Shown: piece after piece, positions 23,149 through 45,857 of the stretch | Layout: each line of letters begins with the position of its first letter | How positions within the stretch are numbered: position 1 is the first letter of the stretch | Virus record (IMG/VR): IMGVR_UViG_3300036800_000124 | Location: 1 to 45,857 of that record | DNA: 45,857 bases | Origin: a virus | Strand: one strand, 5' to 3' | Made by a program: the position numbers and the translations under genes | Notes under the pieces: generated by a model | The model's database searches: none | What the model was told of the DNA's origin: nothing | Seen by the model: the letters and a program-made list of their open reading frames with translations, nothing else

Positions 23149-24156
23149 ATGGCCGGACGTCAACAGGGTTTCAGTGGAGCGGCGGTGGAGACGACGCTCA
23201 CTGCTCCGATCGACGATGCGGAACTTACCTTCCAGGTTCAGTCGGTCACTGGATGGCCTGCCTCGGGACTCCCCTTCACCGTCACGCTCGACCAGGGCAG
23301 CGACACTATCCAAGAGACCGTGCTGGTTGATTCCTACTCTGGCCTCACCGTCACGGTCGACACGCTGGTCGGTCGTGGCTACGACGGTACGACCCCCCAG
23401 TCACACGCCGAAGGTGCAGCGGTCGTCCACACGCTCGACGCCGCGTTCTGTGCTGACCTCTCGGCGCGTGCGTTTGCGACCACGACCAAGGGCGACATCC
23501 CGATCGTCAGCACCACGACGGGCGTGGTCATGGGTCGCCTGCCCATCTCGGGGACGCAGTTCCAGACGGTAGGCGCCGGTGCCGCGGGCTTGCCGGCCTA
23601 CCAGGACTCTGCCAAGTCGAAGCTCTCTACGCTCGGCGACCTGCTCTACGCCTCAGGGGCGAACGCCCTCGCACGCCTTGGCATCGGCAGCACCGGCAAG
23701 GTGCTCACGGTTGTCGGGGGGCTGCCTGCGTGGGCTGCGATCCCAGCGGTGACCCCGGTGACGTCCAACTACGTCGAGTCCTACATCACAGCGGATAGTT
23801 CGGCACTCAGCGCAGAAACGAACATCACCTCGGTTGCTCTTGGGGCCGGGACGTGGCTTATAACGGCGCGAGCACTGTTTACGCAATCGTCAGCAAGCGT
23901 GAATACGGCTGACCTGTGGATAGGCCCTACCAGTGTCAGCGCCACAGGCGCTTACGCAGCGGGAAGTTGCGCAGTCGGCAACCTCGCGGGCGCCGCGCAA
24001 GACGCGTATGTCACCATAACCAAGGTGGTAGTCCTTGCGTCCCCCACCACCGTGTATATGGAAGCGTCGGGGAACTCGTCCATGTTCGTACTGCACTTGT
24101 CGAAGGATCTCTCCATCGGAAACGTGAGCGGTATCACGGCGGTGCAGATCGCGTGA
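23149..24156 (+). CDS. Tail fibre or appendage protein
   Basis: This 335-residue beta-rich protein is preceded by GGGAGG. The middle contains KGDIPIVSTTTGVVMGRLPI and ALARLGIGSTGKVLTVVGG, a repeat type common in phage fibres. The last 125 residues look like a jelly-roll, C1q/TNF-like knob (WLITARALFTQSSASVN, then YVTITKVVVLASPTTVYME). It probably forms a trimeric receptor-contact fibre attached near the nozzle. The next gene overlaps it by 4 bases. Confidence 0.7.
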   Translation: MAGRQQGFSGAAVETTLTAPIDDAELTFQVQSVTGWPASGLPFTVTLDQGSDTIQETVLVDSYSGLTVTVDTLVGRGYDGTTPQSHAEGAAVVHTLDAAFCADLSARAFATTTKGDIPIVSTTTGVVMGRLPISGTQFQTVGAGAAGLPAYQDSAKSKLSTLGDLLYASGANALARLGIGSTGKVLTVVGGLPAWAAIPAVTPVTSNYVESYITADSSALSAETNITSVALGAGTWLITARALFTQSSASVNTADLWIGPTSVSATGAYAAGSCAVGNLAGAAQDAYVTITKVVVLASPTTVYMEASGNSSMFVLHLSKDLSIGNVSGITAVQIA

Positions 24157-24659
24157 CCGCTCGCACCGAAGCCGCCGCGCTCATCGTCTCGACGGCGAGG
24201 GTGCTGCTCGAGCGTCACACGCCGTACTCCATGCAGTCTCCGGTCGGCTCTGATGGCGACGGACACGACTGGATGCCGACCGACCCCTGGCCGAATCACG
24301 TCGACTGCTCGGGCGAGGTGATCGTGTGCCTGCGCCGCGCGGGGTTCTTCTCCATCTCCAACGGCACCGCGAACGACCAATGGCTGCAGCACTTGGGCGG
24401 CATCGTGCACCCGAGCCAGAAACTCGAAGCGGGCGATGTCGGATGCTTCCTCGGCTCGGAGAACCGACCGGGCTACGCGGGCCACACGGGCATCGTGGCT
24501 GAGTACAACCACGAGACACGCAGCGGTCTCCTCCTCAACGCCTACGACACCGAGCGTGGCAACTGCGAGATTCCTTTCAACCGTGACCAAGTGCACAACC
24601 TGAGTAATGGACTGGGCGTTGTAGGTTTCTACCGACCGGCGAATCGAGTCGCGGCGTGA
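24153..24659 (+). CDS. Endolysin, NlpC/P60-like endopeptidase
   Basis: GTG at 24153 overlaps the fibre stop (GTGA) and gives 168 residues; the frame is open further upstream but without a better start. The motif HVDCSGEVIVCLRRAG places the catalytic Cys at 52, and GHTGIVAEYN the catalytic His at 111, in the order of NlpC/P60 peptidases. These enzymes cut the peptide stem of peptidoglycan. No signal peptide is seen, so release would depend on the adjacent membrane proteins. No separate wall-binding domain is present. Confidence 0.85.
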   Translation: MTARTEAAALIVSTARVLLERHTPYSMQSPVGSDGDGHDWMPTDPWPNHVDCSGEVIVCLRRAGFFSISNGTANDQWLQHLGGIVHPSQKLEAGDVGCFLGSENRPGYAGHTGIVAEYNHETRSGLLLNAYDTERGNCEIPFNRDQVHNLSNGLGVVGFYRPANRVAA

Positions 24660-24973
24660 CCATTCCCGTCGACGAGATCGGGTGGACACCGAACACGCTG
24701 TACCTCTACACCGAGCGTCGATTCACCGAAATGGACCGACGCTTCGCCGAAGCCATGGCTGCGCAGAAAGAGGCCCTTGAAAAGTTCGAGGATGAGGTGT
24801 CTCAGCGCTTCGACGGGACCGACAAGAACTTCGAAGGGCTGAGGAATCTCATCACTACGCTTGGCACCACGATCAGCCAGCGCTCGGGTGCGCTGAACCT
24901 GCTCGCGCGCGTGATCCCCAACCTCATCGCGCTGGCCAGCATCGCAGCTTTGATCTACGTATCGGGACACTGA
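24656..24973 (+). CDS. Holin candidate with coiled coil and C-terminal membrane helix
   Basis: This 105-residue protein overlaps the endolysin stop by 4 bases. A charged coiled-coil (about residues 20-60: RRFTEMDRRFAEAMAAQKEA) precedes one membrane helix near the C-terminus (about 83-102: VIPNLIALASIAALIYVSG). This N-in helical layout directly after an endolysin is typical of phage holin or lysis-control proteins. It could instead be an antiholin paired with the next gene. Confidence 0.75.
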   Translation: MTIPVDEIGWTPNTLYLYTERRFTEMDRRFAEAMAAQKEALEKFEDEVSQRFDGTDKNFEGLRNLITTLGTTISQRSGALNLLARVIPNLIALASIAALIYVSGH

Positions 24974-24983
24974 GGAGGAATCT

Positions 24984-25139
24984 ATGAGGACCCTGTTATT
25001 CATTCTGGCTGGCGTGTTGTTCGTGCTGCTCTTCTTCATCGCGCTCGTGGGCGGCACGTGGGACACACTTCGTCACCTGTTCATGCTGCTCGGCCTCGGC
25101 TTGGCGCTCCTCGCCTTCGCGCACGTGGTCCACGACTAG
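24984..25139 (+). CDS. 51-residue two-helix membrane protein, second holin candidate
   Basis: ATG at 24984 follows a GAGGAGGA ribosome site. Nearly the whole protein is membrane: a first helix at about residues 3-24 (LLFILAGVLFVLLFFIALVG) and a second at about 31-49 (LFMLLGLGLALLAFAHVV), joined by a short polar turn (GTWDTLR). Small two-helix proteins beside an endolysin are usually class II holins or antiholins. The next gene starts one base after its stop. Confidence 0.7.
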   Translation: MRTLLFILAGVLFVLLFFIALVGGTWDTLRHLFMLLGLGLALLAFAHVVHD

Positions 25140-25418
25140 GTGCACTGGCTCAACTCGCTCTGGTGGTGGGTCGAAGTGCACACGGGCACTGTCAATGAGG
25201 GCGGTCCCTACTACGGATTCTGGTCGGGATTCGGCAGCGACATCAGCGAATTGGGTTCAGTGCTCGGGCTCTTCGTGCTCTACTATCGTCATAACAACTG
25301 CCATACACCAGGTTGCAGATTCATCGGCCACCACGGCTTCGCTGACGCGAACGGTGTGACTTACAAGCTCTGCCACCGCTGCATAAAAAAGATTCCCAAA
25401 CGAGAGGACATCCAATGA
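25140..25418 (+). CDS. Small Trp/Cys/His protein of the lysis block
   Basis: The protein has 92 residues with a GTG start. The N-terminus is Trp-rich (MHWLNSLWWWVEVHTG), then comes a short hydrophobic segment (YYGFWSGFGSDISELGSVLG, then LFVLYY). The C-terminus is likely zinc-binding (HNNCHTPGCRFIGHHG, then LCHRC). The GFWSGFGSD motif followed by a C/H cluster is familiar from small actinophage lysis-region proteins of unknown role. It is probably membrane-associated. Confidence 0.65.
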   Translation: MHWLNSLWWWVEVHTGTVNEGGPYYGFWSGFGSDISELGSVLGLFVLYYRHNNCHTPGCRFIGHHGFADANGVTYKLCHRCIKKIPKREDIQ

Positions 25419-26434
25419 CCGACCAGATCGACAACCTCGAGCCCGCCGACCGCACCCACGGACTGCGCGGTGTCATTCGCCACGCGCCCAAGGACGAGGC
25501 GGTCGCGGCTGCCTACCCGCCCGCTGACCCTGACCTGCCCGACACCTACGACGCCACGCACGGCGAGAAGGTCTACGGCATGCAGGGCAACGACAAGTGG
25601 CCGAACTGCTTCTGGGCCGCGGTCGCGCACGCCACTACGGTGCAGGCGCTCACGGGTCTCGACGACAAGGGACACCCGACCTTCGTCGAAGGCGCGGTTA
25701 TCCCCCACCCCGACGAGGCGGTCGAGTGGTACAAGGTCTACTGCGAGGCGAACGGCCAGCCCCCGACGCCGCTCAGCGATGGCACCAGCCCCTACGCCGG
25801 CGCGAAGTCCATCCTGGCGCAAGGATTGGCCGAGTACGTGGGTGTGCTCGGACCTGAGGACCGCGACGCCGAGGGGAACTCGGTCTTTGATGCGTCGATC
25901 ATCGAGCAGGCCATCTATGACACGCAAGGCGGGGTCATCATCTGCCTGGCGCTCGACCCCGACGCGGAGAAGGAGTTCGACGACCACGTGCCGTGGGGCA
26001 CTCAGTCCTCCAGCCCTGACGCCGAAGATGGCCACGCGGTCACGGGCGTCGCCTACGACCCGACGAACAAGGAGTGCATCACCTGGGCACAGCTCCAGTT
26101 GATGACCAACGAGTTCGACATCAACTGCATCGACGGACTGGTGCTGGTGCTCACCAAGCACTTCCAGGGCGACGACGCCGCGGTAGCCGCCAAATGGGGC
26201 TTGACCAGTGCCGCCACACTGGCAGCATCAGCGCCAGATCAGGCACCTCCCGTCACGACGCCCACGAACGACACTCCCGTAGCCCCGAAAGGGCCTGAGG
26301 ACCTCCTAGCGCGTGCTCGTGGCATCGAGGCGGACCTGCGCCACCTCGTCGAGATGGCCGTGAAGCGCCTCCCCGAAGAGGACATCATCAAGGCCATGGA
26401 GCAGATGATCGAGTTCTACGTCAAGATTCCGTGA
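25415..26434 (+). CDS. Papain-like cysteine peptidase-type protein
   Basis: This 339-residue protein overlaps the previous gene by 4 bases. Residues 54-72 read YGMQGNDKWPNCFWAAVAHA, placing a candidate oxyanion Gln57 and nucleophile Cys65, as in the Q-x(6)-C-x-F/W-A pattern of papain-like enzymes. His207 lies in DGHAVTGVAYD, and Trp224 in ITWAQL takes the place of the usual N-S-W-G region. The C-terminal 90 residues hold a Pro/Thr linker and a helical tail. No signal peptide is seen. It may act on host proteins or on peptidoglycan cross-links. The substrate is unknown. Confidence 0.65.
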   Translation: MTDQIDNLEPADRTHGLRGVIRHAPKDEAVAAAYPPADPDLPDTYDATHGEKVYGMQGNDKWPNCFWAAVAHATTVQALTGLDDKGHPTFVEGAVIPHPDEAVEWYKVYCEANGQPPTPLSDGTSPYAGAKSILAQGLAEYVGVLGPEDRDAEGNSVFDASIIEQAIYDTQGGVIICLALDPDAEKEFDDHVPWGTQSSSPDAEDGHAVTGVAYDPTNKECITWAQLQLMTNEFDINCIDGLVLVLTKHFQGDDAAVAAKWGLTSAATLAASAPDQAPPVTTPTNDTPVAPKGPEDLLARARGIEADLRHLVEMAVKRLPEEDIIKAMEQMIEFYVKIP

Positions 26435-26925
26435 CGATCCAAGCCGGCGACATCGGGTTCGCCCACACCAAGGGGTTGATGGGCCGACTCATCCGACTCG
26501 GCGAAGCGCTCAAAGGCAAACTAGGGAGCGAGTGGAACCATCAGTTTGTCGTTGACAGGATCGTTGACGGTGTCCCTTACATCATCCAGGCGACCTTCGA
26601 GGGCGTTACGGACACGGCACCTCTATCAATGGTTGCTCCCGGTGGGCGATACATCACGATGCCGCCGCCGCCCGAGGTGGACCGCGGGAAGTTGCTCGAG
26701 TTCTGTCGCTCCGAGGTAGGAACCAAGTATTCGCTCCTCAGCGACGTTGCAATCGGTATCGACATCTTGAGCTGGAACTGGGTGCCCGCGCTGATGAACT
26801 CGTACCGACGCACGTGGCAGTGTGCGGGACTTATCAATGAAGGGATGCGCTTCGGAGGGTGGTTGCATCAGTGGGTGAACTGCAATACGGTCACTCCGCA
26901 GATGGGGTTCCTCGCGCTACAGTAA
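26431..26925 (+). CDS. Permuted NlpC/P60 (YiiX-like) protein
   Basis: This 164-residue protein has a GTG start overlapping the previous stop. Catalytic residues come in permuted order: AGDIGFAHTKGLMGRLIRLG and then WNHQFVV with His37 near the N-terminus, and WQCAGLINEG with Cys131 near the C-terminus. This is the arrangement of the circularly permuted NlpC/P60 (YiiX/DUF830-like) fold. Members act as amidases or lipid-linked hydrolases. In this lysis block a second wall- or lipid-directed activity is plausible. A strong hairpin follows the gene. Confidence 0.75.
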   Translation: MTIQAGDIGFAHTKGLMGRLIRLGEALKGKLGSEWNHQFVVDRIVDGVPYIIQATFEGVTDTAPLSMVAPGGRYITMPPPPEVDRGKLLEFCRSEVGTKYSLLSDVAIGIDILSWNWVPALMNSYRRTWQCAGLINEGMRFGGWLHQWVNCNTVTPQMGFLALQ

Positions 26926-27069: not shown

Positions 27070-27303
27070 ATGGCAAGAACTGACGTGATGGGATTCGTCC
27101 AGAAGTTTCGGCCCGACCTGATCAAGCGCGCAGTGAACATGCGCATCAACCTGGAATCGTTCGACGCCATCGGGCAGGTCTTGAGCGAGGGTATGGGCAT
27201 GCACATCGGGCGCGAAGCAGTGCGCCGATGGTTCGTTCGCGAGGGTGTGCGTCTCGTCAACGAGGAACTAGCAAAGGCCAGCAATGGCAACGCCGCTTCC
27301 TGA
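27070..27303 (+). CDS. Small helix-turn-helix protein, candidate regulator
   Basis: ATG at 27070 (a GTG lies directly before it) gives 77 residues. Residues about 25-60 (NLESFDAIGQVLSEGMGMHI, then GREAVRRWFVREGV) look like a helix-turn-helix in which GREAVRRWF would be the recognition helix. It is the first gene after operator A and has no other domain, so it may bind that operator and control itself. It overlaps the exonuclease gene by 20 bases. Confidence 0.65.
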   Translation: MARTDVMGFVQKFRPDLIKRAVNMRINLESFDAIGQVLSEGMGMHIGREAVRRWFVREGVRLVNEELAKASNGNAAS

Positions 27304-28216
27304 ATTTGACGCAGAGATACTCGCCGACGTCGACACGCTGGCTCGCGAAGAGTGGCTGGAGTTGCGTCGCACGGGCCTGGGAGGATCCGACGCTGCCGCC
27401 ACGCTCAGTCTCTCTCCCTACACCAGCCAGGTCGCGCTCTATCTCGACAAGGTTGACCCGCTGCCCGACGAGGACAAGGAAATCTTTCAGGCGGGTCGTC
27501 GCGCCGAGCCGATGATCGCTCAGTGGTTTGCCGACGACACCACCTTTGAGGTGGCGCGCTCAGCCGTCATGCTGCGCTCGCATCGCCGCCCCTTCATGCT
27601 CGGAAACGTCGACCGCTTCGTGTACGACGAGGCTGCGGACGAGTGGGCCGTGCTCGAAATCAAGAACGTCGATCGCTCGAAGGCGCACGAGTGGGCAGAC
27701 GGTCCACCGATTCACGCGCGTCTCCAGGGACTGCACTACCTCGAGGTGTGTGGCGAGAACTTCAAGCGTCTCTACGTCGCGGCACTGGTCGGCGGCAACA
27801 GGTTCATCCACTACGTCGTCGAGCGTGACGAGGAACTGATGGCCAGACTGGTCGCTGCGGAGGAGAAGTTCTGGACGCTGGTGCATCTCCAGCGCATGCC
27901 TGACATTGATGACTCGGAGTCCACGCGAAAAGCGTTGCTCGCGCACGCGGGCACCGAGGCCAAGGAGATTGAGGTTCCTGCCCGGTTCGTCGAACTCCTG
28001 GAGAGTCGCGCCACGATGAAGGCCATGCTCAAGGTGCAGGAGGCTCAACTCAGGGCAGTCGAGAACGAGATGTCTGCGCTGATGAAGGACGGTGACGTCG
28101 CGACGTGTCACGGGGTCGTGGTAGCCAAGTGGCTGCGCATCACGGTGCCAACGCACGAGGTAAAAGAGTTTACAAAAAGGCAATGGAACATACCAAAAAA
28201 GGAGAAGCAGCAATGA
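27284..28216 (+). CDS. YqaJ-type viral recombinase exonuclease
   Basis: This 310-residue protein has the RecB/Cas4-like nuclease core of the YqaJ family: GLGGSDAAATLSLSPYTS near residue 31, AGRRAEPMIAQWF with Glu75, LGNVDRFVYDE with Asp110, and VLEIKNVD with Glu125 and Lys127. These form the metal-binding E-D-ExK set. It should resect double-stranded DNA ends 5' to 3' and hand single strands to the RecT protein encoded downstream. The C-terminal helical part (about 240-310) may contact that partner. Its stop overlaps the next ATG (ATGA). Confidence 0.9.
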   Translation: MATPLPEFDAEILADVDTLAREEWLELRRTGLGGSDAAATLSLSPYTSQVALYLDKVDPLPDEDKEIFQAGRRAEPMIAQWFADDTTFEVARSAVMLRSHRRPFMLGNVDRFVYDEAADEWAVLEIKNVDRSKAHEWADGPPIHARLQGLHYLEVCGENFKRLYVAALVGGNRFIHYVVERDEELMARLVAAEEKFWTLVHLQRMPDIDDSESTRKALLAHAGTEAKEIEVPARFVELLESRATMKAMLKVQEAQLRAVENEMSALMKDGDVATCHGVVVAKWLRITVPTHEVKEFTKRQWNIPKKEKQQ

Positions 28217-29457
28217 AAGTAATTCGATTGACAGCAGAAAACGTCAAGCGACTTCGCGCGGTGGAGATAACGCCGGACGGAAACGTGGTGGTCATCGCTG
28301 GACGCAACGCGCAGGGAAAGACCAGCGTGCTCGATTCGATCTGGCTTGCGCTCGGTGGTGGGGCAGCGTCCAAGGACACTGCCAAGCCCATCCGTGACGG
28401 TGAGGATAACGCGAGCGTGTTCCTTGACCTCGGCGACTTCACGGTGAAGCGCACGTGGGCTGGCGACAAGACTGCGCTCACGGTGATGAGCAAGGAGGGA
28501 GCGAAGTACCCGAGCCCGCAGAAGTTCCTTGACGAGAAACTCGGCGCGCTCTCGTTCGACCCGCTGGCGTTCGCTCAGCAGGACAACAGGTCGCAACTTG
28601 CCACGTTGCTCGCGCTGGTGGAGCTGCCGTTCAACCCCGACGAGTTGGCCGCAGCGCGACGTGCCACCTACGACGAACGCACGACGTGGGGACGGGATCT
28701 CGCCAACGCCAAGGCACAACTCGCGAGCATCCCACAAGTGCCCGACGATACACCTGACCAGGAGGTCTCAAGCGGTGAAATTCTGGCTGAACAGGCTGAG
28801 CACCAGCGCCGGGTTCACGCAGCGGAGGCCAGCCAACGAGACCTGATCGTGGCAGAAGAGAACGCGAAGAAGAGCGGCGAGGAGGTGCGCCAGGCTGAGG
28901 TCGAGTTGAGGCGTCTGCGTGAGCACCTGGTCAGCGACGGGGACGCGTTGGAGAACGCGAAGAACGCAGTAGTGGCGGCTCCCGAGGCCATCGACTTCAC
29001 CGAGCGTCTCACCAGTGTCGAGCAGACCAACAGGAACGTGCGTACCATGCAGGACCGCCTGGTCCTCACAGGTGCGGTTGAGAAGTTCAACGAGGGCGTG
29101 GAGAAGCTGACTGCTGACATCGTGGCGATCGATAAGAGCAAAGCCAAAGCCCTGGCCGAAGCGAAGATGCCCGTCGAAGGACTCGCGTTCGACGACGACG
29201 GAGTCACTTACAATGGCGTTCCCTTCAAGCAGTGTTCTAGTTCCGAGCAACTGCGCATCTCTCTCGCCATGGCGATGAGTCTCAACCCAGAGATTCGAGT
29301 GGTGCGCATCAGCGACGGGTCGCTCCTCGACTCCGAGAACATGGCGGTCATCGCCGAGATGGCGGACGCACACGACTTCCAGTGCTGGATTGAACGCGTC
29401 GACGAGTCGGGAGAAATCGGCTTCGTGATTGAAGACGGCGCGGTGGCCAATGACTAG
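28213..29457 (+). CDS. SbcC/RecF-like ATPase with coiled coil
   Basis: ATG at 28213 overlaps the exonuclease stop and gives 414 residues. Walker A is GRNAQGKTS at about 30-38, in an N-terminal ABC-ATPase half (FxxFxN-type start KVIRLTAENVKRLRAVEI, quoted as VIRLTAENVKRLRAVEI). Residues about 195-320 form a coiled coil. The C-terminal half has a signature-like SSSEQLRISLAMAMS (about 342) and a weak Walker B, VVRISDGSLLD. It is shorter than Rad50/SbcC and resembles phage ATPases that work with a YqaJ or RecE nuclease in end processing. Confidence 0.85.
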   Translation: MKVIRLTAENVKRLRAVEITPDGNVVVIAGRNAQGKTSVLDSIWLALGGGAASKDTAKPIRDGEDNASVFLDLGDFTVKRTWAGDKTALTVMSKEGAKYPSPQKFLDEKLGALSFDPLAFAQQDNRSQLATLLALVELPFNPDELAAARRATYDERTTWGRDLANAKAQLASIPQVPDDTPDQEVSSGEILAEQAEHQRRVHAAEASQRDLIVAEENAKKSGEEVRQAEVELRRLREHLVSDGDALENAKNAVVAAPEAIDFTERLTSVEQTNRNVRTMQDRLVLTGAVEKFNEGVEKLTADIVAIDKSKAKALAEAKMPVEGLAFDDDGVTYNGVPFKQCSSSEQLRISLAMAMSLNPEIRVVRISDGSLLDSENMAVIAEMADAHDFQCWIERVDESGEIGFVIEDGAVAND

Positions 29458-29647
29458 GGAAAACGAATTTTCCAAAAACGGCCCGAAAAAAATCTCCACT
29501 TTTTTAGGATCAGTGACCTACGAGGAATGGCTAAAACGCCAGAACAGACGCTGGAAAGGCAAGCGGTATCGCAAGCACCTCAGCGTGGCTGACATTGATC
29601 GACGCACCGCTAAGGCCATAGAATTTCTGGACGCTCATGGCCGCTGA
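29450..29647 (+). CDS. Small basic protein between ATPase and RecT
   Basis: ATG at 29450 overlaps the ATPase end, giving 65 residues; an upstream start seven codons earlier is possible. The protein is basic (KRQNRRWKGKRYRKH) and helical. It overlaps recT by 11 bases, so it is translationally coupled to both recombination genes. No family is recognised. A run of A and T at 29461-29505 lowers the local GC content. Confidence 0.6.
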   Translation: MTRENEFSKNGPKKISTFLGSVTYEEWLKRQNRRWKGKRYRKHLSVADIDRRTAKAIEFLDAHGR

Positions 29648-30518
29648 CCAAGGAGCTGACCGCGCACGCGCGCAGGTAGACGCCGCCAGCAAGGGCGAGA
29701 TAGCAACGACGAGCACCAAGTCCCTGCGCGAACTGGTGGAGTCTCAGGAGTCGGCCATCGCGCGCGCGCTCCCAGGAGCAATGGATCCCGCTCGTTACGT
29801 GCGCATCGTCCAGAACGAACTCTCGAAGAATCCGAAGTTAAAGGAATGCACGCCGAGGTCCTTCATGGGTGCGGTGCTGACGGGAGCGCAGTTGGGTCTG
29901 GAGCCGGGACCGATGCAGCAGTGGTACCCGGTGCCCTATCGCAATCACGGGGTTGCCGAGGTCCAGTTCATTGTCGGCTATCGCGGCTGGGCCGCTCTCT
30001 CGCACCGCACTGGGCAGATACAAGGCATCAACCCGCGCACCGTGTTCAAGGGCGATGAGTTCGACTACGCCTATGGGCTCGACGAGTACCTCATCCATAA
30101 GCCGTGTGAGGACGACAAGCGTGGCGCACCGCTCTACTACTACGTGGTCACGCGACTCACCAATGGTGGACGTAACTTCGTCGTGATGAGCCGACCCGAA
30201 GTCGAACGTCACCGTGATCGCTACGCCAAGAAAAACGGAACAATCGTGGGTCCTTGGGCCGACAAGGACCAGTTCGAGGCGATGGCCTGGAAGACGTGCT
30301 TCTTGAAGCAGAAGGCGTGGCTCCCGAGCAGCATCGACGTCATGCAAGCCGACGCCACTGATGGGCACGTGGTCAATCGCATGGACCCCGAGGAAGAACC
30401 CGAGGTCGTGCCATTTGACGATGACGAGATTGTGGACGCAGAGATCGTTGGCGACGCCGAGACTGGCGAAAGCGCCTGGGAGCGCGAAGAGCGTGAAAAT
30501 GCGGAGCGTGGCGAGTAA
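29637..30518 (+). CDS. recT: RecT-family single-strand annealing protein
   Basis: The 293-residue protein has the RecT order: KSLRELVESQESAIARALPG near the N-terminus, DPARYVRIVQNELSKNPKL, SFMGAVLTGAQLGLEPGPMQ, then VQFIVGYRGWAALSHRTG, then WADKDQFEAMAWKTCFLKQ. It coats single-stranded DNA and anneals complementary strands. With the upstream exonuclease it forms a RecE/RecT-like two-part system for phage recombination and possibly end-repair replication. The acidic C-terminus (about 250-293) is typical for contacts with host SSB or partners. Confidence 0.9.
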   Translation: MAADQGADRARAQVDAASKGEIATTSTKSLRELVESQESAIARALPGAMDPARYVRIVQNELSKNPKLKECTPRSFMGAVLTGAQLGLEPGPMQQWYPVPYRNHGVAEVQFIVGYRGWAALSHRTGQIQGINPRTVFKGDEFDYAYGLDEYLIHKPCEDDKRGAPLYYYVVTRLTNGGRNFVVMSRPEVERHRDRYAKKNGTIVGPWADKDQFEAMAWKTCFLKQKAWLPSSIDVMQADATDGHVVNRMDPEEEPEVVPFDDDEIVDAEIVGDAETGESAWEREERENAERGE

Positions 30519-30810
30519 GCACGGCTCCTTTGGCCGCTACCTAGACGGCTGTCTCTGTGACGAGTGTTTTGGCGCAGCTCGTCGCGTGCACGCTGCTCGC
30601 AAACTGCCCATCGAAGGTGCCCTCGCGACACTGGGCTTCGAGCGACGCACGCGGCGCGTGTGGCGATTCGAGGATCGACGCATCACGCACGGCACGCGCT
30701 CGGGCTACGTGCAAGGGTGCCGACGCGAGTGTTGCGCCATTCCACAGCGCGAGTATCAGCGCGACTACTACGAGAAAAAAAAGAAAATGGTACTGGCGTC
30801 AATGCTCTAA
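30499..30810 (+). CDS. Small protein with two Cys-containing repeats
   Basis: ATG at 30499 lies inside the end of recT in another frame; GTG at 30508 is the alternative start. The product has 103 residues. Two similar units are visible: HGSFGRYLDGCLCDECFGAA and HGTRSGYVQGCRRECCAIPQ, each followed by an Arg/Tyr-rich helix. This HGxxxGYxxGCxCxxC type is a small zinc-binding motif found often in actinophage proteins. The C-terminus is very basic (YEKKKKM). Confidence 0.65.
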   Translation: MRSVASKHGSFGRYLDGCLCDECFGAARRVHAARKLPIEGALATLGFERRTRRVWRFEDRRITHGTRSGYVQGCRRECCAIPQREYQRDYYEKKKKMVLASML

Positions 30811-30829
30811 ACGTGGCATCATTGGAGCA
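30803..30829 (+). promoter_or_regulatory. Operator site B
   Basis: This copy of the 27-bp palindrome has TGCTC, central TGGCA and GAGCA at the fixed spacing. It lies 29 bases before the ATG at 30858 and overlaps the last bases of the preceding gene. The -10 position reads AAACGT and the -35 position is poor, so promoter activity is less certain than for sites D and F. Confidence 0.65.
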
Positions 30830-30857
30830 GCCTGTACGAGGCGAAAGGAATGATCGA

Positions 30858-31244
30858 ATGACGCGGATGAGGATTGAACTCGAAGCTGATCAATTGGCAG
30901 TAATAGTCGCAACCATGGTTCTTGGGTACACCAAGTCTGAGAACGATGGGTCGCACGAACTGGCCACGCAGCAACGCGACGCCACGAACGCCTTCGTCTC
31001 TGGCTCGGCGCTGGTGCTGCCGTTTGGCGATCCGCTTCCCAGCAACCGCCTGCGGAAGCCGAACTGGGGAACGATTGCCCCAGAGCAACTGATTAGTCGT
31101 CTTGAAGCCATGGCGGCGGTAAACGGAGCCGCGATGTTCTACCAGGAAAATGCCATTTACGATTCGGTAGCGCTGAACAATGGCTACCAGCTCGGGATTG
31201 ACGCAGCGTTGGACGCGGTGTACGGCGTGCGGGTGTGTCAGTGA
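30858..31244 (+). CDS. Early protein after operator B, unknown
   Basis: ATG at 30858 behind AAAGGA gives 128 residues. An in-frame ATG three codons later is also possible, and the frame is open upstream. The protein is helical (LEADQLAVIVATMVLGY, then ALDAVYGVRV) and I recognise no family. It starts a dense run of small early genes coupled by 4-base overlaps. Confidence 0.65.
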   Translation: MTRMRIELEADQLAVIVATMVLGYTKSENDGSHELATQQRDATNAFVSGSALVLPFGDPLPSNRLRKPNWGTIAPEQLISRLEAMAAVNGAAMFYQENAIYDSVALNNGYQLGIDAALDAVYGVRVCQ

Positions 31245-31507
31245 TTAGCGCCATCCTCACGCCGGCGCAGGGCCTCGACGCGGGCTGGGCCATTCTCGCC
31301 TGCTGCGCGGTCGTGACACTGATACTCGCGCTTCCAGAGTTGCGTCGCAAGCGCAACGCGAAGAGACGGCAGTTGCCGACTCCTATATCGGTAACCAACG
31401 GCGATCATCGGTTTTTAGTGGTGGGCATGACACTTCTCGTGGACGATGAGCGCATGCGAATCGTCGAGATTCGCGAGGATGGTCAAATCTTCGTGGAGCG
31501 ACTGTGA
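31241..31507 (+). CDS. Small membrane protein
   Basis: GTG at 31241 overlaps the previous stop (GTGA), giving 88 residues; a GTG six bases earlier is possible. One membrane helix (about residues 12-33: GWAILACCAVVTLILALPEL) is followed by a basic stretch (RRKRNAKRR) and a small beta-rich cytoplasmic part. No family is recognised. Confidence 0.6.
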   Translation: MISAILTPAQGLDAGWAILACCAVVTLILALPELRRKRNAKRRQLPTPISVTNGDHRFLVVGMTLLVDDERMRIVEIREDGQIFVERL

Positions 31508-31770
31508 TTGAACCGTTGAAGATAACCCCTACCCGGAAGGCTCATTTAGAAGCGGTTGAAATGACGGCACGGAACGCGGAGGAACTCGCGGAGTGGTGCG
31601 ACGGGTACCTCAGCTCAACAGTCAAGGGCGAACCGATGCTGGTTGTCTACGGAGAAGTGGGGTCATACTTTGCAAACCCGGGAGATTTTGTCATCAAGTA
31701 CGTCGGCGGAAACTTCGGTGTTATAACCAGTGAGCATTTCCGCGACACCTACACAATCGAGGACGAGTGA
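31504..31770 (+). CDS. Conserved small phage protein (AEEWCxG / PGDFVIK type)
   Basis: This 88-residue protein has a GTG start with GTGA overlap. The pattern NAEELAEWCDGYL, then VGSYFANPGDFVIKYVGGNF, then FRDTYTIEDE matches a family of small phage proteins I know from many actinophage and other phage genomes (W-C-x-G near the start, R/N-PGD-W/F-V-I-K in the middle). Its function is not known. Confidence 0.7.
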   Translation: MIEPLKITPTRKAHLEAVEMTARNAEELAEWCDGYLSSTVKGEPMLVVYGEVGSYFANPGDFVIKYVGGNFGVITSEHFRDTYTIEDE

Positions 31771-32129
31771 CCAACGTCCAGTCCTCAATCTTCGAGACCT
31801 TCGACGATCCCGAGGCGCTGGAGACCGCGCTGCGACGTCCGCTCACCGACCTGGAAAAGTTCTGCTTCTTCCACGCCCGCAATCCTCACATCTTCGCTGA
31901 GTTGGAGCGCATGGCCAGAGAACTGGCGGCTCGTGGACGCAAGCGCATCGGCGTGAAACTCCTGGTTGAGCGGCTCCGCTACGACCACTACATGACGAGC
32001 GACGACCCAAATAGTCAGTTCAAACTCAACAATTCCTACACGAGCTTCTACGCTCGCCTGCTGATCGACACGCATCCCGAACTACGGGAACTGATCGAAA
32101 CGAGAGAGAGGCATCACAATGACACCTGA
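31767..32129 (+). CDS. Small phage protein, possible HTH
   Basis: This 120-residue protein overlaps the previous gene by 4 bases. Residues about 30-110 read as helices (TDLEKFCFFHARNPHIFAEL, then RKRIGVKLLVERLRYDHYM, then SFYARLLIDTHPEL). This resembles small phage proteins in replication or recombination blocks, where the last half could bind DNA. Its end overlaps the next gene by 11 bases. Confidence 0.6.
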   Translation: MTNVQSSIFETFDDPEALETALRRPLTDLEKFCFFHARNPHIFAELERMARELAARGRKRIGVKLLVERLRYDHYMTSDDPNSQFKLNNSYTSFYARLLIDTHPELRELIETRERHHNDT

Positions 32130-32649
32130 AATTGACACCGACCTTGGCGAGACCGTTGAGGGCTACCGGGTCAACACCACATCGGTAAAGATCCTGGCAC
32201 TGGGCGACGGGCTTTCCAGTTCCGTCAAGGTCGCTCCGATCATGGTCCACGCCGGCGACGTCGTCTACTTCGCGGTCAAGGCCAAGAAGATTCGCGACCA
32301 GTACGATTTCAAGTTCGACGACGAGGGCGAAGTCGAGAGCGTCGATTTGGTCCAGGTGTTCAGTGCCAAGACCGCGATCTTCGTCGACTTCGAGGCGGTC
32401 GCTCAGGCCATCGCCATGATGGAAGCCAAGATCGAGAAGGCGAAGAAAGCACCGGGCCAGGGAGAGATTCTGCGCACCTGTGGAGCCTGTGGCTGGCAGG
32501 AGGGCCAGGAGCCCGAGGGGTGCCTGAACGGCAACCCGCTGCACGACTTCCCGATCAGCTCGACCTGGACCGAAGAGGACGACCTTGACGACGAGGGGCG
32601 CCCGCTGACCGGCGACGAACTCGCTGCGAAGGGACTCGACAAGAAATGA
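32119..32649 (+). CDS. Protein with single Cys-pair knuckle, early block
   Basis: The 176-residue protein has a beta-rich N-terminal half (YRVNTTSVKILALGDGLS, then HAGDVVYFAVKAKKI) and a Cys-containing segment RTCGACGWQEGQEPEGCLNG near residue 117. The C-terminus is acidic. This layout is similar to conserved actinophage early proteins of unknown function. It overlaps the next gene by 4 bases. Confidence 0.6.
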   Translation: MTPEIDTDLGETVEGYRVNTTSVKILALGDGLSSSVKVAPIMVHAGDVVYFAVKAKKIRDQYDFKFDDEGEVESVDLVQVFSAKTAIFVDFEAVAQAIAMMEAKIEKAKKAPGQGEILRTCGACGWQEGQEPEGCLNGNPLHDFPISSTWTEEDDLDDEGRPLTGDELAAKGLDKK

Positions 32650-32954
32650 TCTGCCCACGCTGCGGCCTCGCCTTGGAACTTCACTGGACTATTGCGCTCA
32701 CGCCCGACGAACTCGACCAGTGGTCGAAGGACGAGAGCAACGGGGTGCTCTGCACGCTCACACGCGCGGAGGTGGTGAACCTGATCGAGGCCGAAGCGAC
32801 GCCGAAGGTAGAAGAGACCCAAGCGCGCCGCTCGATCTGCTCACTGTGCGGGTCCAGCAAGGTGGCCACCCCCGAGAGTCGGTACTTCCACGCGCAGCCT
32901 GACGAGCCGTTCGACCTTGACTGGGATGGATGCGTGAAGGGAATGGGGACGTGA
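32646..32954 (+). CDS. Double zinc-ribbon protein
   Basis: This 102-residue protein opens with MICPRCGLALELHW and carries a second knuckle, SICSLCGSSKVA, near residue 63, plus a Cys in DGCVKGMGT at the end. The two CxxC pairs suggest zinc binding, perhaps for nucleic-acid or protein contacts. The middle is acidic and helical. ATG overlaps the previous stop. Confidence 0.6.
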   Translation: MICPRCGLALELHWTIALTPDELDQWSKDESNGVLCTLTRAEVVNLIEAEATPKVEETQARRSICSLCGSSKVATPESRYFHAQPDEPFDLDWDGCVKGMGT

Positions 32955-33592
32955 CGATCGAGTTCGAAATAACGCCAATCAAGCGCTGGCCGGACGGATG
33001 GGATCGGCATCGTCCACCGACCAAATGGTCGCCGTTCACGGGGTCGTGGAACTCGACGCGTGAGCTCTTGGACCGCGAACTGAGCCACCTGCGAGCCAAA
33101 GAGGTGAAGTTGCAACTCGACGTCACCGATTATCAGGTGAGACGCGACGGGATGCTGCGCAGCGACACGAAGGTCACCTATCCCGGCGTCATCCTCGGCT
33201 TCAACACGCCGGAATGGGGAGGGCTGTCGTACCCGTGCAACGCGTTTGCGAGCAACTACAAGCAGCCAGCATGGCAGGCCAACGTGCGCGCGATTGCTCT
33301 GGGCCTCGAGGCGCTGCGTCGCGTCGAGCGGTACGGGATAGCCAACCGTGGTCAGCAGTACGCCGGCTTCGCTGAGCTCGGCAGTGGCATCGCCATGGGT
33401 CCGATGTCTTCTGCCCAGGCGCTCGAACTTTTGCTCAAGGCGGTCGAAGCCGAAGAGGATGATGACGGATCATCGTGGGGGGACGGTGAACTCTTTAGGC
33501 GCGCAGCGATGAAGCATCATCCCGATGTCGGTGGAGATCCTGATTACTTCAAGCTGCTGGTTGAGGCGCGTGACGTGCTGGAGGCATCGTGA
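32951..33592 (+). CDS. J-domain (DnaJ-like) protein
   Basis: GTG at 32951 overlaps the previous stop and gives 213 residues. The C-terminus has LFRRAAMKHHPDVGGDPDYF followed by LLVEARDVL, containing the His-Pro-Asp triad and following helix of J-domains. The N-terminal 150 residues have a beta-rich DUF-like part with YPGVILGFNTPEWGGLSYPC. Phage J-proteins with this build likely engage host DnaK in replication or folding. Only the second half of a full J-domain is clear. Confidence 0.75.
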   Translation: MTIEFEITPIKRWPDGWDRHRPPTKWSPFTGSWNSTRELLDRELSHLRAKEVKLQLDVTDYQVRRDGMLRSDTKVTYPGVILGFNTPEWGGLSYPCNAFASNYKQPAWQANVRAIALGLEALRRVERYGIANRGQQYAGFAELGSGIAMGPMSSAQALELLLKAVEAEEDDDGSSWGDGELFRRAAMKHHPDVGGDPDYFKLLVEARDVLEAS

Positions 33593-33906
33593 GCGACAAC
33601 ACCGAGTGGGAGAGCGTGCTCGACCTGAGCGGCGCGTCACGTGACCTGTTGCTCGGCGTCGAGGTGGGCATGCTCTACGTCAGCGTGCGCGTCATGGCTG
33701 AGGGATCAATTCCGCTCGCAGACGGCACGGAGGTAGGAGCACCGCGAATCGACGCAGTTGAGATGACGGTGCACGGCGAGAACGCCGAAATGTTCATACG
33801 CCTGGCCGAAAGGTTCGGGGTACGCATCCGCAGCGAGGAGCTGGACGAAACTTGGATGAAGGTTTTCTACTGGAAAGACCGAGATGAGGAGGATCGTGAT
33901 ATTTGA
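33589..33906 (+). CDS. Early protein, unknown function
   Basis: This 105-residue acidic protein has a GTG start with GTGA overlap. It has alternating beta strands (LLGVEVGMLYVSVRVMAEG, then IDAVEMTVHGENAEMFIRLA) and an acidic C-terminus. No family is recognised. It is coupled to the J-domain gene. Confidence 0.6.
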   Translation: MSDNTEWESVLDLSGASRDLLLGVEVGMLYVSVRVMAEGSIPLADGTEVGAPRIDAVEMTVHGENAEMFIRLAERFGVRIRSEELDETWMKVFYWKDRDEEDRDI

Positions 33907-33947
33907 CCCACACCGCAGTGGCCGCATTCCTCGATCATCGGAGTTCC

Positions 33948-34322
33948 GTGAAAGTTCTCACCTCAGTTCTAGTTTCTTTAGTTTTGTCAGCCAGCGTCGC
34001 GACGAGCGCGGCAGCGTCTTCAACGGGCCGCTCAGTGAGTTCGCGACTCGATCGCTCGCTCCACGTCACGCGCGCCATGATGGTCCAGGGGAGGTGGGTG
34101 GACCACTGCGAAGAGGGTGGCCAGCCGGACCCCTGGCACACCGATGGGCCGACGTATTTCGGCGGCTTGGGCTGGATATCAGCAACGTGGACGACGTTCA
34201 GAGCGTCTTGGATGCCCTCCTCCATGAACTTGGCGACACCGCTCGAGCAGACGTGGGCGCTCTACCAGTTCGCGAAGAGGTACTACATGCCGGACCTGAA
34301 CGGGCAGTGCCGGGGGTACTGA
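33948..34322 (+). CDS. Secreted Rpf-like peptidoglycan hydrolase
   Basis: GTG at 33948 sits behind CGGAG; the open frame begins 45 bases upstream, but this start gives a clean signal peptide (KVLTSVLVSLVLSASVATSA, cleavage near residues 22-25). The mature part has WVDHCEEGGQPDPWHTDGP, then YFGGLGWISATW, then ATPLEQTWALYQFA. That is the resuscitation-promoting-factor layout: C-E-x-G-G with catalytic Glu55, then Y-x-GGL and EQ. Such enzymes cut glycan strands of actinobacterial walls. The domain fills the protein (124 residues). It may act outside the cell during infection. Confidence 0.85.
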   Translation: MKVLTSVLVSLVLSASVATSAAASSTGRSVSSRLDRSLHVTRAMMVQGRWVDHCEEGGQPDPWHTDGPTYFGGLGWISATWTTFRASWMPSSMNLATPLEQTWALYQFAKRYYMPDLNGQCRGY

Positions 34323-34447
34323 CGTGGCAGCGCATCCACGACGCCTATCAGCCAGGAAGCGCAAGCCCGTACACCGCTGACGAGTGGCGCCGATTCGACG
34401 AGGACTGCTTCGCGTTCGCGGAGAGAATCGATCGGAGGGGCTGGTGA
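34307..34447 (+). CDS. 46-residue early protein
   Basis: GTG at 34307 overlaps the end of the Rpf-like gene in another frame and continues to the stop at 34445-34447. The protein is acidic and aromatic (YTADEWRRFDEDCFAFAERI). The frame is open upstream, so the start is uncertain. The next gene overlaps it by 4 bases (GTGA), which supports it being real. Confidence 0.45.
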   Translation: MPGVLTWQRIHDAYQPGSASPYTADEWRRFDEDCFAFAERIDRRGW

Positions 34448-34635
34448 AAGCGTGCCCCTACGTCGGCTGGAACGCAGTCGTGACGCGTGACGCGATCGAC
34501 CACTCGCGCATCGGCAATCGTGGCGTGGTGATTTCTGGACGCTACGGCACAGCCGGGTGGTCCCTACCCGTCGAGTTCGAGGGCGAGCGTCAGATCCACT
34601 ATCCGTTCAACCATCTGGAATTGAGCCCGTCGTGA
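34444..34635 (+). CDS. 63-residue protein, unknown
   Basis: GTG at 34444 overlaps the previous stop; the frame is also open upstream. Beta-rich sequence (VGWNAVVTRDAIDHSRIGNR, then GTAGWSLPVEFEGERQIHYP) suggests a small SH3-like or KOW-like barrel. No family is assigned. Confidence 0.55.
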   Translation: MKACPYVGWNAVVTRDAIDHSRIGNRGVVISGRYGTAGWSLPVEFEGERQIHYPFNHLELSPS

Positions 34636-34889
34636 GCGACTCCGACCGAATCAAGAACGTCCAGGGGCTCGTTGACGACCTCGTGCGAGGACAGACCGAC
34701 GAGTTCGTCAATGAGGTGAGCGAAGATGTCGAAGACGCGCCAACGTCGCTCGTACTCGGTGACTGGATTCTCGTCACCCACTGGCTCAATCCAGAGAACA
34801 ACACCCACTGGTACCACGAACTGCGCTCACAGGGCCTTTCGCCACACGCACAACTTGGGCTGCTTCATCAAACCTTGGAGCAGCGGTGA
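34632..34889 (+). CDS. 85-residue acidic protein, unknown
   Basis: GTG at 34632 overlaps the previous stop (GTGA). The N-terminus is acidic and helical (VQGLVDDLVRGQTDEFVNEV) and the middle is tryptophan-rich (LGDWILVTHWLNPENNTHWY). This resembles small phage proteins that accompany the RusA gene, but I know no function. Confidence 0.6.
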   Translation: MSDSDRIKNVQGLVDDLVRGQTDEFVNEVSEDVEDAPTSLVLGDWILVTHWLNPENNTHWYHELRSQGLSPHAQLGLLHQTLEQR

Positions 34890-35410
34890 GCGCGCGCGAG
34901 GAGATGATTCGTGAGTCAGCGCTCACGCCCTTTGAGTGCGTGGTGCGAGGCGTCCCGATCCCGCAGGGTTCCAAGTCAGCGTTCGTGCGAGGAGATCGCG
35001 CGGTCATCGTTGACGGCACCAGCGCCACAGGACGGGCCAAGCACAAGAGCTGGCGCCAGGAGGTAACCCAGACCATCATGGACGCCAAGATGGGTCGACG
35101 CTTCGAGGGACCCGTGAGCATCCGGCTCATCTTCTGGATGCCGCCCGTGAAGTCCGATCAGTACCGCACGCGCCACGCGACCAAGCCAGATTTGGACAAA
35201 CTCGTTCGTTCGATTTTTGACTCGCTCACCTCGAGCGGACTCATTCGAGATGACAGCCAGGTGTGGGAACTCGAGGCGACCAAGTTCTACGCGCGAAACG
35301 GGCACTGGACCGGCGTCAAGATCGAGGTCGGCGACCATGAGTGGCACGAAGTAGAAGATCGCGCTGAATTGAAGGGCGCGGCGAAGGCTGCTCGGCGAGG
35401 GGGGAAATGA
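34886..35410 (+). CDS. rusA: RusA-like Holliday junction resolvase
   Basis: The 174-residue protein has VVRGVPIPQGSKSAFVRG near the N-terminus, which is the RusA entry strand, and KPDLDKLVRSIFDSLTSSGL followed by IRDDSQV. Asp102, Asp104 and Asp122/123 match the three catalytic Asp of RusA. It resolves four-way junctions made by recombination, in line with the exonuclease and RecT genes of the same block. GTG overlaps the previous stop, and the next gene overlaps it by 4 bases. Confidence 0.9.
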   Translation: MSAREEMIRESALTPFECVVRGVPIPQGSKSAFVRGDRAVIVDGTSATGRAKHKSWRQEVTQTIMDAKMGRRFEGPVSIRLIFWMPPVKSDQYRTRHATKPDLDKLVRSIFDSLTSSGLIRDDSQVWELEATKFYARNGHWTGVKIEVGDHEWHEVEDRAELKGAAKAARRGGK

Positions 35411-36516
35411 GATCTGACATTCTCGTCGGTGACGCTCGCGACGTGCTCTTGAAGTTGCCCGACGAGTCGTTCTCGTGCTGTGTCACATCCCCTCCGTACT
35501 TCGGACTGCGGGACTACGGCAATGATGGACAGATCGGTTTAGAAGCGTCACCGGCCGGCTACGTCGAAGAGTTGACAGCCGTGTTCCGCGAGGTAAGGCG
35601 CGTGCTGACTGATGACGGGACGCTGTGGCTCAATCTCGGCGATTCCTACTCGCACGGCGGCAATGGCTCGAGAGACGCGGAACGGTGGCCGAAGCAACCC
35701 ACCAACGACCATCGCATCGAGCATCAGAATCGCAACACCGGCGTGGCGCCCAAGAATTTGCTCGGCATCCCCTGGCGTGTGGCCTTCGCGCTTCAAGACG
35801 ACGGCTGGTACCTGCGCTCCGACATCATCTGGGCCAAGCCCAATCCCATGCCCGAGAGCGTGAAGGACCGCCCCACCAAGTCACACGAGTACCTCTTCCT
35901 GCTCTCGAAGTCGCCGCGCTACTACTACGACGCGGACGGGATCAGCGAGTCGGTCGCGGTGTCGTCCGTCAATCGGCTCAATCAGGATCTCGAGGCGCAG
36001 GCGGGATCATCGCGAGCGCACGACGGGACGAAGGTAATGAAGGCGGTCGCCCCGGCCTCGTGGAACGGTAGTCGCTTCGACACGGGCAAGACGGCGGACC
36101 ACCAGTTACAGACCATGCAACGACGCACGCCCCCCCGGTTTGGAGGCACAAAATATGGCGAGGACGACGCTTTCGCGACCTACTCGGGCAATGAGTACGA
36201 GGAAACCGGCCGGCGCAACAAGCGCGACGTGTGGACCGTGAGCTCTGAGCCATTCGCCGGCGCGCACTTCGCGGTCATGCCGACTGAACTGGTGAGGCCC
36301 TGCGTGCTGGCGGGCAGTCCCGAAGGGGGCAACGTCTTAGATCCGTTCGCCGGCAGCGGGACCGTGGGCGTGGTAGCCCTTCGAGCGCAGCGCAACTTCA
36401 CCGGCATTGAACTGAACCCAATCTACGCACAGATGGCGGCAGACCGGATACGCGACGACGGACCAATGTTGAACGACGTGCACCTGACCCCAGTAGAGAC
36501 AAAGGAGACGAAATGA
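35407..36516 (+). CDS. DNA methyltransferase (N6-adenine/N4-cytosine, beta order)
   Basis: In this 369-residue protein, motif IV TSPPYFGLRDYG (about 27-38) comes first and the SAM-binding motif I LDPFAGSGTVGVVALR (about 311-326) near the C-terminus, followed by FTGIELNPIY. That order is the beta class of amino-methyltransferases. DILVGDARDVLLKLPDESF at the start is the usual entry. The central insert (about 195-270) may form the target-recognition domain. With no partner nuclease nearby it is an orphan enzyme, likely protecting phage DNA from host restriction or adjusting gene expression. Confidence 0.9.
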   Translation: MRSDILVGDARDVLLKLPDESFSCCVTSPPYFGLRDYGNDGQIGLEASPAGYVEELTAVFREVRRVLTDDGTLWLNLGDSYSHGGNGSRDAERWPKQPTNDHRIEHQNRNTGVAPKNLLGIPWRVAFALQDDGWYLRSDIIWAKPNPMPESVKDRPTKSHEYLFLLSKSPRYYYDADGISESVAVSSVNRLNQDLEAQAGSSRAHDGTKVMKAVAPASWNGSRFDTGKTADHQLQTMQRRTPPRFGGTKYGEDDAFATYSGNEYEETGRRNKRDVWTVSSEPFAGAHFAVMPTELVRPCVLAGSPEGGNVLDPFAGSGTVGVVALRAQRNFTGIELNPIYAQMAADRIRDDGPMLNDVHLTPVETKETK

Positions 36517-37806: not shown

Positions 37807-38019
37807 GTGACGCGCAGCTTCCCTGACTACGACACGCCGGTCAAGATCGACATGGAGTTCGAACTCGCGCTCGCGTTGCTGCTGGACGTTCGCAGTGCAA
37901 CATCCGAAGTAGGGATTCCACCGCCACTGTTGCAGTCCGAGGACATCTGGCGCCTGATCGACAACTGCGACGGCGATCCAGAGCGGCTCTACGCCGAGTG
38001 GGACCACCTGACCCAGTAA
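37807..38019 (+). CDS. 70-residue protein at the end of the early operon
   Basis: GTG at 37807 behind GGGGAGA gives 70 residues; a TTG 15 bases earlier is the alternative. The sequence is acidic and helical (IDMEFELALALLLDVRSAT, then LLQSEDIWRLIDN). Its last 31 bases overlap, on the other strand, the end of the leftward secreted protein gene, so two operons converge here without space for a normal terminator. Confidence 0.6.
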   Translation: MTRSFPDYDTPVKIDMEFELALALLLDVRSATSEVGIPPPLLQSEDIWRLIDNCDGDPERLYAEWDHLTQ

Positions 38020-38630
38020 AAGGCCAGGGTTTCGCTGTTCAGGCTGATCGTCCCGTCCGCGTTCACCACGTGCGTGTACTCCCAGATCAGCTGCGTCCAG
38101 GTGATGTGGGTCACGGTGCCCGTGTCAACCTGAGTGACCTCGCGCGCGTTGGCGTGGACAATCGCGAACATATGCTGCATCGTTGGACCCATCACCGTGA
38201 CCTCGAGACCACCGGCATTGGCTGCTGACACCATCTGAGCGCGCGTCGTGACCTCGGTGATCGACTGGGCGCGATGACCAGCGAATCCTTGGTCGAGGAG
38301 GAAGTTCTGTCCAGCCCACAGCCCGGTGAGCGTCCACGTCGACCCGCCATCGCTCGTGACGGACTGACCCTCGAACGCGCCCCCAAACTTGTCATAAGCC
38401 GACTCAACCTCAGCGGTCGTGATGTGCGCAGCGGGCCAACGCGACAGGACCAGGTTGGCCGCAGTCTCGTACTGGCAATCGTCAGCGCCCGACAGGTCGC
38501 CAAACGCACGGTAGGGCGTGGTGGCGTGGAGACTGGACGCGCCGGCAGGCATGGCCAAAAAGGCGCTCGCGGCGATGCCTATCGCGCACAGTCGCCCAGT
38601 TGTGTTGAACTTCGCTCGCCTATCGCGCAC
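37989..38630 (-). CDS. Secreted papain-like cysteine peptidase-type protein
   Basis: GTG at 38630 (reading leftward) follows AAGGAG and gives 213 residues with a basic N-terminus (RDRRAKF), hydrophobic core (LCAIGIAASAFLAMPAG) and cleavage near residues 29-33. The mature protein has GADDCQYETAANLVL with Cys52, QHMFAIVHA with His153, and HITWTQL with Trp178. The same order and an ITWxQL end motif occur in the lysis-block protein at 25415-26434, so both probably share the papain-like fold. It is the last gene of the leftward operon and acts outside the cell, perhaps on envelope or competitor proteins. Confidence 0.65.
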   Translation of the reverse strand: MRDRRAKFNTTGRLCAIGIAASAFLAMPAGASSLHATTPYRAFGDLSGADDCQYETAANLVLSRWPAAHITTAEVESAYDKFGGAFEGQSVTSDGGSTWTLTGLWAGQNFLLDQGFAGHRAQSITEVTTRAQMVSAANAGGLEVTVMGPTMQHMFAIVHANAREVTQVDTGTVTHITWTQLIWEYTHVVNADGTISLNSETLAFYWVRWSHSA

Positions 38631-38672
38631 GGTCACTCCTTCGTGATCTGAGGCTAGGTGCTCGCCAAGCCT

Positions 38673-38704
38673 GCGCTGTGCCCGGGACAAGTCGGGCACA
38701 GCGC
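38673..38704 (-). terminator. 12-bp perfect hairpin inside the leftward operon
   Basis: The stem 38673-38684 pairs perfectly with 38693-38704 around an 8-base loop. A second overlapping GC-rich palindrome (38701-38715) can form an alternative fold. It lies upstream of the secreted protein gene and downstream of the two small leftward genes, so it may reduce or end their transcript. No T-run follows. Confidence 0.6.
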
Positions 38705-45739: not shown

Positions 45740-45857
45740 TGTCCCCGCGCAAGGCACAGGCACCGAGGGGCGCTGGCGTTCGCTCTGACGGCGAAGTCAC
45801 CAAGGGCAACATCAAGAACCCGAACACTGGCCAGCCAAACGGCAACGCGCCGAGAGG
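45731..45857. repeat. Terminal direct repeat, copy 2 (circle overlap)
   Basis: These 127 bases are identical to 1-127. The frame starting with ATG at 45739 is the truncated second copy of the gene at 9-545 and runs off the end, so it is not a separate gene. Confidence 0.95.

Follow-up and report, generated by a model that had tools for sequence, protein, structure and literature searches.

A divergent Rpf-type transglycosylase-like protein, predicted to be exported, encoded among the recombination genes of an uncultured phage

The small gene at positions 33948-34322 raises the question of why a phage would encode a putatively exported relative of the resuscitation-promoting factors (Rpf) in the midst of its recombination genes. 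An earlier note on this DNA had proposed for the gene a role in host physiology and not in lysis. The window, by which we mean the entire stretch of 45,857 nucleotides that was analysed, is an IMG/VR virus record and very probably is a complete phage genome of about 45.7 kb because it carries a direct terminal repeat of 127 bases (positions 1-127 and 45731-45857). Rpf domains in phages are already known (PMC1796659, PMC6392294, PMC3314691). Here, we asked what the gene product is, where related phages place their copies of the gene, and which uses of such an enzyme are best compatible with its sequence and position.

The reading frame and its homology to Rpf

The open frame on the plus strand starts with GTG, stops with TGA, and codes for a protein of 124 amino acids; a ribosome-binding-like GGAG is located four bases 5' of the start. 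The codon usage of this frame is weak, yet it is the best among the six frames. Promoter and terminator scans returned no more signals than shuffled sequence did. In the protein, a short linker joins a hydrophobic Ala-rich N-terminus to a C-terminal domain with the sequence elements CEEGG, WHTDGPTYFGGLG, ATPLEQ, and PDLNGQCRGY, in which C-E-E-G-G occupies residues 54-58, Y-F-GGL residues 70-74, and E-Q residues 100-101. The N-terminus is signal-like in both sequence and hydropathy: K2 is followed by a hydrophobic core that begins at residue 3 and then by Ala-x-Ala-type residues. Its 15-residue mean hydropathy of 2.27 ranked first in a comparison of 11 plus-strand proteins of the window, in agreement with the export signal that the earlier note had seen. 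We infer from this N-terminal sequence that the product is exported, with a predicted signal peptide at approximately residues 1-23 (33948-34016) and a presumed cleavage site at its end. The Rpf-type domain spans residues 41-124 (34068-34319) and includes Cys54, Glu55, and Cys121, as delineated by the structural model and by the alignment with phage relatives and RpfB.

As a single query, the protein found nothing at threshold in Pfam, PHROGs, the PDB, or 50,697 phage records. The single-sequence Pfam search returned no family at E <= 10, the gathering score of PF06737 was not reached, and scanning viral sequences with only this protein as query retrieved no relative. These searches suggested an orphan protein, a reading that was overturned by a profile of relatives. 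A divergent homologue was suspected because the sub-threshold tblastn matches in phages were mostly genuine Rpf-domain proteins. Relatives were gathered by running a degenerate DNA pattern for CExGG...Y-x-GGLG on viral contigs. The pattern occurred in well over 100 viral contigs, nearly all of which encode members of a single family of small proteins whose N-terminus is hydrophobic. A test profile built from 36 phage proteins, with the window protein left out, scored the 124-residue protein at 46.2 bits (E 2.4e-16), and the best of 5,000 shuffles reached 11.0. Since the search pattern itself came from the window, we also masked both motifs; the protein still scored 9.1 bits, more than any of the 5,000 shuffles (best 6.6). 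The segment following GGLG was marginal when taken alone (10.9 bits, equalled by one shuffle).

Representatives of the 36-protein set match PF06737 at 8e-18 to 3e-6. Moreover, a second profile, made from the window protein and 39 relatives with canonical Rpfs excluded, retrieved from the PDB solely chains of RpfB, RpfC, and RpfE, with a best E of 8.4e-14. The enzyme type is therefore clear: the 124-residue protein is a divergent relative of the Rpf type (PF06737, transglycosylase-like). We describe it as a divergent relative connected via intermediates, and not as a canonical Rpf, because it has no direct Pfam match. The earlier note had recognised the Rpf pattern in CExGG, YxGGL, and EQ, and the profile score and the PF06737-matching relatives bear this out. 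Its assignment to the Rpf/transglycosylase-like family holds by homology to PF06737-matching proteins, but not by a direct match to PF06737 itself.

Fold and active site

The AlphaFold2 model of the protein has a mean pLDDT of 77.5, mostly 83-95 for residues 41-110 and lower at the C-terminus. In a Foldseek search against the PDB, the top 15 matches of the model were all Rpf structures, with a best E of 2.7e-3 and none below 0.001. Comparison with the catalytic domain of RpfB (4emn) gave a target TM of 0.69 and an rmsd of 1.5. The pair Cys54-Glu55 is invariant across 40 aligned proteins and aligns with Cys291-Glu292 of RpfB (CEAGGNW), where Glu292 is the catalytic residue and Cys291 forms a disulfide with Cys355 (PMC11978375). 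The counterpart of RpfB Cys355 is Cys121 in GQCRGY, for which one freshwater phage relative (L187) has GQCRGW, and the alignment makes Cys121 the likely disulfide partner of Cys54. The earlier note had named a fold lacking the Rpf active-site Glu as evidence against its proposal; we found instead that Glu55 is kept and that the predicted fold is that of Rpf.

The alignment to RpfB further pairs Val51 with Ile288, Trp63 with Trp297, Tyr70 with Tyr305, Leu74 with Val309, Trp76 with Phe311, and Thr80 with Thr315, whereas Gln310, Asp312, Ile337, and Trp352 of RpfB (residues from PMC11978375) are without a like residue. The protein also has a three-residue insertion after CEEGG that is absent from the relatives aligned with it. 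The catalytic domains of RpfB, RpfC, and RpfE from Mycobacterium tuberculosis have in common with the window protein the predicted fold, the catalytic Glu, the preceding Cys, and counterparts of Trp63, Tyr70, and Thr80; they differ from it in several cleft residues, and only about 25% of the positions in the aligned core are identical. Judged by the conserved residues, catalysis is likely. The protein might nevertheless be a weak or inactive enzyme because it is very divergent (branch of 3.02), bears the insertion after CEEGG, and misses counterparts of the four RpfB residues.

Position of the gene and its recurrence in other phages

The Rpf-like gene is part of a block (27284-36516) in which it is flanked, on the same strand, by genes for recombination and methylation. 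Upstream are the genes of a RecE-like exonuclease (27284-28216, phrog_434, E 2.9e-74), an AAA/SbcC-like protein with its true start probably within the open reading frame (28105-29457, phrog_1499, E 1.6e-93, and phrog_77, E 3e-7), and a RecT-like annealing protein (29637-30518, phrog_148, E 1.2e-63). They are followed by a gene for a protein of phrog_13625, to which no function is assigned (31767-32129, plus strand) and whose homologues stand directly upstream of some viral Rpf-like genes. Downstream are the genes of a RusA-like resolvase (34886-35410, phrog_140, E 1.8e-29) and a DNA methyltransferase (35407-36516, phrog_67, E 1.9e-74). The minus-strand gene 37989-38699, which converges on the end of the early block, encodes another protein whose N-terminus is signal-like (GRLCAIGIAASAFLAMPAGASS); it had no family match.

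The candidate lysis region (24153-25139, plus strand) is about 9 kb away from the Rpf-like gene, which thus lies outside the lysis cassette. The region encodes a CHAP-like protein without a signal peptide, a candidate lysin or tail hydrolase (24153-24659), with a CHAP E of 0.0081 that is below the Pfam curated cut-off and a match to phrog_329 (minor tail, E 6.4e-4). It also encodes two small proteins with hydrophobic segments, which are candidate holins by their sequence and matched no family (24656-25139). The Rpf-like frame is separate, with its own signal, and is not embedded in a large tail protein. The location given by the earlier note, among early recombination genes and away from the lysins, is supported. 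The window has its late genes on the plus strand as well as its early ones, so the early timing is deduced solely from gene content.

The plus-strand gene 25415-26434 codes for 339 amino acids, is possibly C39-like, and is weakly similar (E 1e-6) to a protein of phrog_19005 that has a small membrane protein as its neighbour in one viral locus (L160); we tested it for a relationship with 37989-38699 and detected none. The adjacent 26431-26925 (plus strand, 164 amino acids) appears papain/NlpC-like by eye, and its PHROG match is labelled enoyl-CoA hydratase-like. Its homologues, at 36-45% identity, occur in many fetched viral loci; most of them precede the Rpf-like gene on the same strand by about 4-7 kb. 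The N-terminal part of 7463-9208 (plus strand) resembles virion lysozyme-like domains by eye, without profile support, and phrog_6654, of unassigned function, matches its residues 170-348. A glycosyltransferase-like gene (18973-19848, plus strand, phrog_34859, E 5.7e-22) is found amid the structural genes.

The neighbourhood of the Rpf-like gene recurs in other phages. We searched for the window proteins in the fetched viral loci, which comprise 50 distinct viral Rpf cores that are not all independent lineages. On the strand of the Rpf-like gene, a RecE homologue was located downstream within 2.1 kb in 18 of the 50 and a methyltransferase homologue within 2.3 kb in five; in seven, a homologue of gene 31767 stood directly upstream. 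The placement in the early block is recurrent and no quirk, because at least one of these three homologues adjoins the Rpf-like gene in 20 of the 50 distinct cores. When 80 genes neighbouring the Rpf-like gene in 19 viral loci were tallied by PHROG, DNA helicases, DNA methyltransferases, and RecE came first, and no lysin was in the 25 commonest families. A simple gene caller missed the Rpf-like gene of the window and RecE, and its calls served for the neighbour genes only. Many freshwater phages likewise encode such an enzyme among DNA-recombination genes.

Among known proteins, the 'Transglycosylase-like' proteins of uncultured freshwater Caudovirales, as UniProt labels them (subfamily B, e.g. 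L074, L158, L187), have the same domain, motifs, and export signal at a similar size, and their genes often adjoin RecE or methyltransferase genes as well. The window protein differs from them in its three-residue insertion, short linker, and very long branch, with identities of about 23-36%. Stand-alone Rpf proteins are also annotated in cultured phages. The Rhodococcus phage proteins Dorin gp28 and Trina gp44 and their relatives are stand-alone exported Rpf domains like that of the window, but they have the canonical CESGGNW...GYYGGLQF and a longer C-terminal tail (PF06737 E of 6e-35 for Dorin gp28). Their genes adjoin thyX and a methyltransferase gene and, in Trina, a Dda-like helicase gene as well. 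The tape-measure proteins of mycobacteriophages Barnyard, Giles, and CRB2 contain an Rpf-type domain, too, as a virion part that acts at entry, whereas the window gene encodes a separate, predicted exported protein made inside the cell. This tape-measure motif 1 is Rpf-like, and motif 3 of TM4, another wall hydrolase, aids the infection of stationary cells (PMC1796659). Stand-alone exported phage Rpfs are hence already on record, and the observation is less new than the earlier note implied. Our search of the open literature, with subscription papers outside its scope, found no paper on exported phage Rpfs or on their linkage to RecE. It is the recurrent linkage of the Rpf-like gene to recombination genes that makes the finding interesting.

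Possible roles of the enzyme and the probable host

We tentatively favour, at little short of an even chance, an exported Rpf-fold wall transglycosylase that is made with the recombination genes and acts on the host wall during infection. The gene would probably be expressed together with the recombination and methylation genes of the phage, and its Sec-exported product would exit the cytoplasm by the secretion system of the host. An Rpf-fold enzyme of the lytic-transglycosylase type would then act from outside and nick glycan strands in the host wall during phage replication. The likeliest use may be wall remodelling maintained in a slow or stationary actinobacterial host, by which the cell, and possibly its neighbours, would stay productive; the enzyme would not be the main endolysin of the phage. 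The phage could benefit because slow cells continue their wall growth, because dormant cells are truly resuscitated, because lysis is helped, or because rivals are excluded. The position of the gene favours an early role. The earlier note's 'host physiology, not lysis' is likewise favoured by the position and by the linkage to RecE and methyltransferase genes, but it is unproven, and stand-alone relatives near an endolysin speak against it.

These relatives, gp43 of BRock and gp184 of Alone3, are Rpf-type transglycosylases of Streptomyces phages and might have a role in lysis because they are encoded three genes from an annotated endolysin. They bring in a serious rival, which we consider somewhat unlikely: an enzyme exported before lysis could weaken the glycan strands and complement a peptidase-type endolysin for full release from the thick actinobacterial wall. 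The CHAP-like candidate lysin of the window is of the peptidase/amidase type. No gene of the candidate lysis region was recognised as a dedicated glycosidase, so the Rpf-like enzyme could supply this activity. Rpf-related transglycosylase domains are also present in mycobacteriophage endolysins (PMC3314691). However, the distance from the candidate lysis region and the placement amid recombination genes, recurrent in other phages, argue against this role, and an active exported wall enzyme without holin control risks early lysis unless it is weak.

Resuscitation proper, in which the released enzyme would wake dormant or non-growing hosts, be it the infected cell or its neighbours, and thereby enlarge the productive host pool, seems very unlikely to us, even though the protein has the Rpf fold and the catalytic Glu and its relatives are abundant in viral contigs. 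Phages MontyDev and Bora were reported to be less infective on Rpf-deficient mycobacteria (PMC12908700), and host rpf genes rise in WC1 infection, for which the authors proposed a counter to dormancy (PMC10986025). Against this, the producing cell must already be infected and translating, the whole subfamily departs from canonical Rpf at several cleft residues, and the papers found show no secreted phage protein resuscitating cells. A factor that modifies the wall and thereby hinders injection by competing phages is hardly probable: export and an early-type position would fit exclusion genes in general, but we found no tested example with an Rpf domain, and the sequence gives it no preference over wall remodelling. 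It is equally improbable that the gene was acquired from an acidimicrobial host and is now decaying or inactive, with no current function. Its codon usage is weak and its branch, beside Acidimicrobiales cellular proteins, is very long, but the frame is intact, with its start, GGAG, and predicted signal peptide, both Cys and every motif residue are kept, and the gene is common in viral contigs.

If the exported enzyme is made early, phages that infect slow-growing or dormant actinobacteria would govern the growth of the host wall as soon as infection begins. Such control would extend beyond entry or lysis and would tie infection to dormancy, a long-standing question of soil and freshwater ecology. 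It can be tested because the gene recurs beside RecE and methyltransferase genes in many freshwater viral contigs and has homologues in cultured Rhodococcus phages. That actinobacterial phages widely carry a secreted Rpf in a recombination operon, waking or sustaining slow or dormant hosts, is a broader proposition that we regard as quite unlikely; if true, the phages would make a growth factor of their own and have in it a general means of countering host dormancy.

As for the host, nearly all relatives in one scan of bacterial genomes were in Acidimicrobiales or Acidimicrobiaceae assemblies, the others being in one Saccharibacteria bin and one Actinomycetes bin. Six Acidimicrobiales cellular proteins (L142-L147) bear a C-terminal Rpf-type domain with the top local identity to the window protein (37-39%) and end in GY, as the window protein ends in RGY. 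They are about 420-460 amino acids long with a large N-terminal region, whereas the window protein is a bare domain with a predicted signal peptide. The tree joins the window protein to these six (99/100), but its branch length is 3.02 changes per site, and the position may serve as no more than a lead because of this long branch and the few columns. The tree holds only seven representatives of subfamily A (L023-L141, e.g. L034), a second abundant viral group that has VLPDxYYDxLAxCETGGNW...YTGGLG...GWGC and matches PF06737. Scans with the window terminase found no relatives, and a scan with gene 32930 gave only short DnaJ-like 'HHPDVGG' matches of 29 amino acids, which we rejected as true relatives. 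A prophage was sought in the class of the Acidimicrobiales relatives, where the terminase gave one weak match in 198 genomes; neither it nor the methyltransferase gave clear evidence of a host. The phage matches of RecT were mostly to Mycobacterium, Gordonia, and Arthrobacter phages. The host is likely actinobacterial, and an acidimicrobial one is plausible.
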